Positions 62,986-64,000 of a stretch of DNA of 64,000 nt are shown here, one piece after another. The notes beneath the pieces are model-generated. The model had not been told where the DNA came from. It was given only the letters and a program-made list of their open reading frames with translations, and did no database searches. A program made the translations under genes and the position numbers. The stretch is from NCBI GenBank assembly GCA_016844745.1, contig JAERMQ010000007.1, forward strand, positions 62,001-126,000, in the 5' to 3' direction. The DNA is from Ignavibacteria bacterium (GTDB lineage: Bacteria > Bacteroidota > Ignavibacteria > Kapaibacteriales > UBA2268). Position 1 is the first letter of the stretch. Each line of letters begins with the position of its first letter.

Positions 62986-63726
62986 TCAACAAAATGCGCC
63001 GGAAAAGAACTCGAACAAATTATCACTGTACTCATTGACTTCTTCGGCTAACAAATCATTGATGTTTTTCAGTATTTCGTTGTGCTTTTCAATCGGTATC
63101 AGAAGCCCTGAGAATACAGTATTATACAAATCTTCCTGAGATATTTTGTCGGGATAGCGCTGCCGGATTGCATAGATTTTTTCCGTCAGCCGAAGGTTCG
63201 ATTTATATAATTGTATCGAATCCTCGAAACTCTCCTTCGAGACTCGAACACCATTGATTTTGTGGATTTCTTCCAGCACGTCATGCACGAAATAGTTATT
63301 AATAACATCGCCGATTATAGTCTGGAAATACTGCGGAAAAGAAATGTACTTGATGAATTTACTCGTTTTCGTTATTTCAATTATTTCAGGATACGCCTTC
63401 ATAGCATTGCATTGAGTTGGCAGGATGAATCCGTCGAAATCCAAATGTGCGCCGCTATTCACCAATTCAAATATACCGGTAAGCATACTGCATGAGTGCG
63501 GGTCTTCTTGCGAAGATTTATGATGCTCCGGGTCGCGGTATTCACTGCCGACCACTCCAACAGCCAAACCGCCTGCTGCATGAATGATTTCGCGGGGGAT
63601 ATAATTGGGGATAATTCCGATAAGAACACGGTCTTTTAATTCCGCCTTCCAGTTTTTAGCAATAGAGAAATTGCCGTCGAATACTATATTCTCACATTCC
63701 GAGAAGATTTTTGAAGTGTTACTCAT
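62986..63726 (-). CDS. 2-hydroxyacyl-CoA dehydratase / benzoyl-CoA reductase-type subunit, truncated
   Basis: The 246-residue protein resembles the N-terminal part of HgdB/BcrC-like subunits. It includes RVLIGIIPNYIPREIIHAAG, DPHSCSMLTGIFEL, FDGFILPTQCNAMK (iron-sulphur Cys region) and KYISFPQY. Full-length relatives are ~380-430 residues. Here the protein stops after the helical middle (INDLLAEEVNEY) with a unique ending SDNLFEFFSGAFC. The second Rossmann-like half and its Cys are missing, and the methyltransferase gene begins immediately. An RM insertion probably cut the gene. The remaining protein is unlikely to act as a dehydratase. Confidence 0.75.
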   Translation of the reverse strand: MSNTSKIFSECENIVFDGNFSIAKNWKAELKDRVLIGIIPNYIPREIIHAAGGLAVGVVGSEYRDPEHHKSSQEDPHSCSMLTGIFELVNSGAHLDFDGFILPTQCNAMKAYPEIIEITKTSKFIKYISFPQYFQTIIGDVINNYFVHDVLEEIHKINGVRVSKESFEDSIQLYKSNLRLTEKIYAIRQRYPDKISQEDLYNTVFSGLLIPIEKHNEILKNINDLLAEEVNEYSDNLFEFFSGAFC

Positions 63727-63799: not shown

Positions 63800-63807
63800 T
63801 ATTTTTG
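63800..63807 (+). promoter_or_regulatory. Bacteroidota-type -7 element upstream of the riboswitch
   Basis: TATTTTTG fits TAnnTTTG exactly. Initiation about seven bases downstream would start the transcript at the first bases of the riboswitch stem (63815). No convincing -33 TTTG is seen. Confidence 0.5.
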
Positions 63808-63814
63808 TAATTGT

Positions 63815-63934
63815 AATGCAGCCGAGATTCATAAGTATATGAATGCGGGGGACCCAAATTATGGGGCGCATTTTTGCAGTAAGCAAAATAGGATACTTCC
63901 ATATCCGAGCCCGTCAGCTAACCTCGTAGGCATT
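63815..63934 (+). ncRNA. c-di-AMP riboswitch (ydaO/yuaA type)
   Basis: The sequence shows the ydaO/yuaA conserved elements in order: GCCGAGATTC (63821), GCGGGGGACCCA, TGGGGCGCA, then CCGAGCCCGTCAGCTAACCT and CGTAGGCATT. AATGC (63815-63819) pairs with GCATT (63930-63934) as the closing stem. These aptamers bind c-di-AMP and usually switch off genes for cell-wall hydrolases or ion and osmolyte transporters. The controlled gene lies beyond the edge; an ATG at 63982 may be its start. Confidence 0.92.
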
Positions 63935-64000
63935 TGGGAGAGCGTTTTCCAGGTTTTGGTTTTGTTTACCTTACCTCCAAAATGCACTCAATATTTTTTT

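Follow-up and report, generated by a model that had tools for sequence, protein, structure and literature searches.

A c-di-AMP-class riboswitch aptamer ahead of a truncated KimA-type gene in a Bacteroidota genome

The last bases of a 64-kb stretch of DNA from an Ignavibacteria bacterium resemble a c-di-AMP riboswitch of the ydaO/yuaA class, which raises the questions of whether the element is genuine and which gene it serves in this host. The whole stretch that was analysed, referred to here as the window, corresponds to bases 62001–126000 of a 148-kb contig from an assembly of 5.0 Mb in 128 contigs that is 93.5% complete. Because the contig continues beyond the window, the gene behind the riboswitch can be read just past the window edge. 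Kapaibacterium is a member of Bacteroidota and of the FCB group. The label "T9SS-bearing", which a preliminary description had attached to the genome, agrees with the presence of T9SS type A sorting domains above the cut-off in two nearby proteins.

The preliminary description had recognized a nearly textbook ydaO/yuaA aptamer, and this assignment is confirmed. The Rfam covariance model RF00379 of the c-di-AMP (ydaO/yuaA) aptamer matches the forward strand over its full length of 134 positions, with a score of 90.2 bits (E = 8e-20) that is far above the gathering score of 38 bits (Table 1). It is the sole Rfam match above gathering in the 64-kb window, and a scan of the 5.0-Mb genome has identified this single copy of RF00379. 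The aptamers of the family have scores of 83–92 bits.

Table 1 Features of the riboswitch locus; positions are those of the window
Feature	Position	Strand	Basis
Divergent neighbour, 246-aa HGD-D (2-hydroxyglutaryl-CoA dehydratase D-component) domain protein	62986..63726	-	Domain match
TATTTTTG, putative -7 promoter element of the preliminary description	63800..63807	+	Motif match
c-di-AMP riboswitch aptamer (RF00379)	63810..63947	+	90.2 bits, model positions 1–134, covariation
Closing helix P1, 5' strand GCC	63821..63823	+	Pairs with 63929–63931 (GGC)
Pseudoknot loop strand CUUCC	63896..63900	+	Partner is GGGAG, 63936–63940
Pseudoknot tail strand GGGAG	63936..63940	+	Partner is hairpin loop, 63896–63900
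Candidate translational expression platform: 5' arm and loop of predicted hairpin	63973..64000	+	Folding only, z -1.96
kimA-like start codon	Window-equivalent 64010 (outside window)	+	Reading frame behind GGAGG

The structure of the aptamer has been evaluated by projecting the Rfam structure onto an alignment of 15 RF00379 copies from Bacteroidota. In this alignment, 92.7% of the structure cells are paired and 14 pairs have changed on both sides, whereas pairing is only 34–54% in the control in which the partners are slid by one to three columns. Two of the three pairs of P1 are invariant, and the third is C-G or U-G. The register of the loop-tail pseudoknot is constant across the 15 copies and is realized by three different sets of sequences: CUUCC with GGAAG or GGGAG, UUCUCUC with GAGAGAA or GAGGGAA, and CUAUC with GAUAG. 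Taken by itself, the pseudoknot of the window copy does not exceed shuffled sequences (p = 0.54), and the pseudoknots of single sequences are mostly not significant when taken one by one. The support for the pseudoknot therefore comes from the conservation of the register across copies and not from the significance of single sequences. By class, this is a bona fide c-di-AMP riboswitch aptamer, which would be expected to bind c-di-AMP.

The promoter proposal is weaker. The preliminary description had placed a TAnnTTTG promoter so that transcription would start at the closing stem. The element is present at the proposed position; however, the window contains 93 matches to TAnnTTTG, with 87 expected, and the motif is found upstream of the aptamer in none of the six family relatives. 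The motif was rejected as a supported promoter on account of its chance frequency and lack of conservation, and the transcription start is therefore not established. The divergent HGD-D gene lies outside the riboswitch operon.

A reading frame of 92 codons begins 63 nt past the aptamer, behind the sequence GGAGG. The encoded fragment is identical in 63 of 88 residues (72%) to the N-terminal start of a 660-aa protein that is encoded behind the orthologous riboswitch of the related genome G044, and the only PDB match of the latter protein is KimA (6s3k, E = 3.9e-62, residues 11–490). By this homology, the gene downstream of the riboswitch, whose identification the preliminary description had proposed as a check, is the start of a KimA-type K+ importer truncated at about codon 88. 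A gene for potassium, osmolyte or wall functions, as used to check membership in the class, is thus present downstream in the form of the KimA-like start, but it is truncated.

The kimA-like frame runs into a 115-bp inverted-repeat MITE-like element (G000:C6:126277–126391) that has 54 matches in the genome and at least eight copies, 91–97% identical, on other contigs. Recorded as an element of about 110 bp (GGGTAGTTCTAAAAATTGTCATTCCCGCGAAAGCGGGAATCC...), it is located at L002:6277–6392 and at 53 other places in the genome, with copies up to 97% identical. A comparison for target-site duplication, made over eight copies only, gave no resolved duplication. The repeat is followed by unrelated genes: first, on the opposite strand, one for a WD40-like protein with a T9SS tag, and after it one for a group II intron reverse transcriptase. 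The remainder of the kimA-like gene was not found anywhere in the assembly, and the sole other KimA-like gene of the genome, on contig C117, encodes a 664-aa paralogue (45%) without a riboswitch. Over the 88 codons, identity is 55–63 between the fragment and the intact copies and 52–61 among the intact copies themselves. The fragment thus diverges from the intact copies no more than they do from one another, which gives no hint of prolonged decay, and the loss, or misjoin, is recent. The target gene has probably been lost recently or misassembled, and in this assembly the switch probably has no working transporter to control. With its target truncated, the riboswitch is only a candidate regulator of a working gene in this genome.

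The c-di-AMP cyclase that the preliminary description predicted elsewhere in the genome is present; with the covariance score far above threshold as well, the class assignment withstands the refutation test set out in that description. The genome encodes one DAC-domain protein, a CdaA equivalog at G000:C35, which scores 219.6 bits against TIGR00159 (NCBIfam cut-off 188.8) and also bears the CdaA N-terminal membrane domain. One 7TMR-HD (PgpH-type) protein is encoded about 8.5 kb further on from CdaA in the same contig; 7TMR-HD is the domain of PgpH-type c-di-AMP phosphodiesterases. The presence of the cyclase is a weak test of the riboswitch, because DAC is near-universal in the relatives (56 of 60 genomes), whether or not they have the riboswitch, which is present in 7 of 149 related genomes. 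In Bacteroidota as a whole, the riboswitch is rare yet not unique (12 of 395 sampled genomes).

Orthologous switches precede full-length kimA in four genomes of the family (G004, G009, G010 and G044) and a beta-barrel porin gene in two genomes of one genus (G020 and G050, the G050 contig ending inside the porin gene). The riboswitch of G020 (L057:3622–12924) is followed by genes for a BBP2 porin, kdpA, kdpB, kdpC, a kdpD without the kinase domain, a kimA fossil consisting of the last 40 codons (the 3' end), and a ComEA-like gene. In G044, which is congeneric with G020, the riboswitch is followed by kimA and later by the same ComEA-like gene. The fossil and the shared position of the ComEA-like gene indicate that the porin and kdp genes took the place of kimA behind the same riboswitch. 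The riboswitch-linked KimA-like genes form a clade with 100/100 support, and the other KimA-like genes are without the riboswitch. A protein from a Spirochaetes MAG is positioned inside the riboswitch-linked clade and is 73% identical to that of G044. Together with the matching aptamer and terminator that accompany it, this suggests that the riboswitch–kimA cassette has been transferred between phyla. A kimA paralogue of G004 without a riboswitch (L004/L075 region, G004:C3:23457–25317) is split into two frames of 268 and 373 aa and is possibly broken.

Bacteroidota also contain a second lineage of RF00379, located upstream of CPA2-type Na+/H+ exchangers (L046, L047, L048, L049, L050 and L055, in G297, G485, G332, G255, G166 and G198, respectively). 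The Usp domain is present in all four of the exchangers that were scanned, and the lineage is likely linked to efflux instead of uptake. In several members of this lineage, the aptamer is followed by a long, conserved stem that lacks a U-run and has a left arm complementary to the aptamer tail, and the element may be an ON switch. In three further loci (L052, L053 and L054, in G408, G288 and G395), the riboswitch precedes a conserved cluster of a 220-aa protein, a CPA2-type exchanger and an APC permease; the APC permease of G408 carries fused PTS_EIIA_2 and TrkA_C domains.

Between the aptamer and the start codon, 9 of the 11 leaders with this type of aptamer have a hairpin with a U-run. The search relied on a custom scan with shuffles because the built-in scan overlooked bulged stems in a relative, and the terminators of the nine leaders are exceeded by only 0–4 of 200 shuffles. 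Neither scan found an intrinsic terminator in the leader of the window copy, and none was found in the leader of G010, though its kimA is intact. The predicted hairpin of the window copy covers the Shine-Dalgarno sequence GGAGG (64001–64005, just outside the window), and this fold suggests translational control. The Shine-Dalgarno sequence has an unpaired probability of 0.01–0.07 in the free, aptamer-forced and forced-alternative folds, so that the modelled platform is closed in every state. An anti-anti-Shine-Dalgarno pairing of 63930–63938 with 63976–63985, although appealing on inspection, was rejected, because it is no better than shuffles (p = 0.25) and is not favoured in folding.

It is probable, and we hold this with good confidence, that the locus as a whole comprises a genuine aptamer belonging to a family of OFF switches for K+ import, the target of which has here been recently truncated or misjoined. 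High cytoplasmic K+ would lead to high c-di-AMP, which would lock P1 together with the pseudoknot of loop and tail. Downstream of the locked aptamer, the leader would then fold into a terminator, in most relatives, or into a hairpin at the ribosome site, and the KimA-type or Kdp importer would not be made. The window copy, which is without a terminator and has a hairpin over its Shine-Dalgarno sequence, may act by translational control.

In Bacillus, kimA and kdp are under the control of this switch through c-di-AMP-promoted termination (PMC6488665), and for Dehalobacter an alternative pairing of P1 and pseudoknot nucleotides with the left arm of the terminator has been described (PMC9337991). 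The terminators in 9 of 11 related leaders fit this known OFF logic on K+ importers (PMC6488665; PMC9337991). The locus shares with the ydaO (kimA) riboswitch of Bacillus subtilis the aptamer class (RF00379), a KimA-type APC K+ importer as the target within the family, and terminators in most relatives; however, the host is a Bacteroidota relative of Kapaibacterium and Ignavibacteria, the target is truncated, and the window copy has no terminator. The arrangement in G020, with the same class ahead of kdpABC and a kdpD-like gene, resembles the kdpFABC riboswitch of Bacillus thuringiensis (PMC6488665), but G020 belongs to Bacteroidota, its porin gene comes first, and a kimA fossil follows kdpD. 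Riboswitch-controlled kdp has been reported as restricted to Bacillales (Wang et al., PMC6488665). The tandem Na+/c-di-AMP riboswitch of Dehalobacter (PMC9337991) has the same aptamer, and a strand of its P1/pseudoknot has been proposed to form alternative pairs with the platform; by contrast, a single aptamer is present here, and the window copy has no terminator.

The state of the window copy can be read in other ways. It could be a decaying relic without present function, in which the aptamer is intact merely because the loss of its target is very recent. This is quite possible, at somewhat less than an even chance: the target is truncated, the terminator is absent, and no other gene is clearly in the operon, but the score of the aptamer is in the same range as those of family members whose targets are intact, and the covered ribosome site has been retained. 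Alternatively, the truncation could be an assembly misjoin at the multi-copy 115-bp repeat, and the real genome would then have an intact riboswitch-controlled kimA. The break exactly at a MITE-like repeat with highly similar copies on other contigs, the fragmentation and incompleteness of the assembly, and a kimA fragment without decay all point in this direction; however, the remaining kimA sequence is nowhere else in the assembly, and the contig passes unbroken through the repeat into unrelated genes. We regard a misjoin as a tentative possibility, on the doubtful side.

It is unlikely that the window switch is transcriptional too, with a terminator that escaped the scans through weakness or an unusual form, such as the CCUCCAAAA...UUUUGGAGG hairpin followed by UUUUAUG. 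Terminators are the rule among the relatives and four U directly follow this hairpin, but both scans lack a terminator-like site here, the Shine-Dalgarno sequence sits within the hairpin, and the family relative G010 does without a terminator while its gene is intact. It appears distinctly improbable that the riboswitch has outlived its gene, either as a leader on its own or as a variant that acts on translation without a terminator, at a locus that keeps its switch while the K+ importers under its control are repeatedly disrupted or replaced (kdp for kimA in the sister lineage).

The preferred reading, a genuine aptamer of a potassium-import OFF switch with a recently truncated or misjoined target, places a riboswitch class that is already known in a phylum from which it has been less reported; the surprises are the truncation of the target and the rewiring seen in sister genomes. 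Bacteroidota are missing from the list of phyla given in PMC6488665, and with this locus the range of c-di-AMP riboswitches comes to include the Kapaibacterium/Ignavibacteria branch of this phylum. In that branch, the riboswitch is tied to a Bacillus-like physiology of potassium import by KimA and Kdp. With a gene replaced under a retained riboswitch, a fossil left behind, and a cassette common to Spirochaetes, the family offers useful material for investigating the spread and rewiring of riboswitch regulons.
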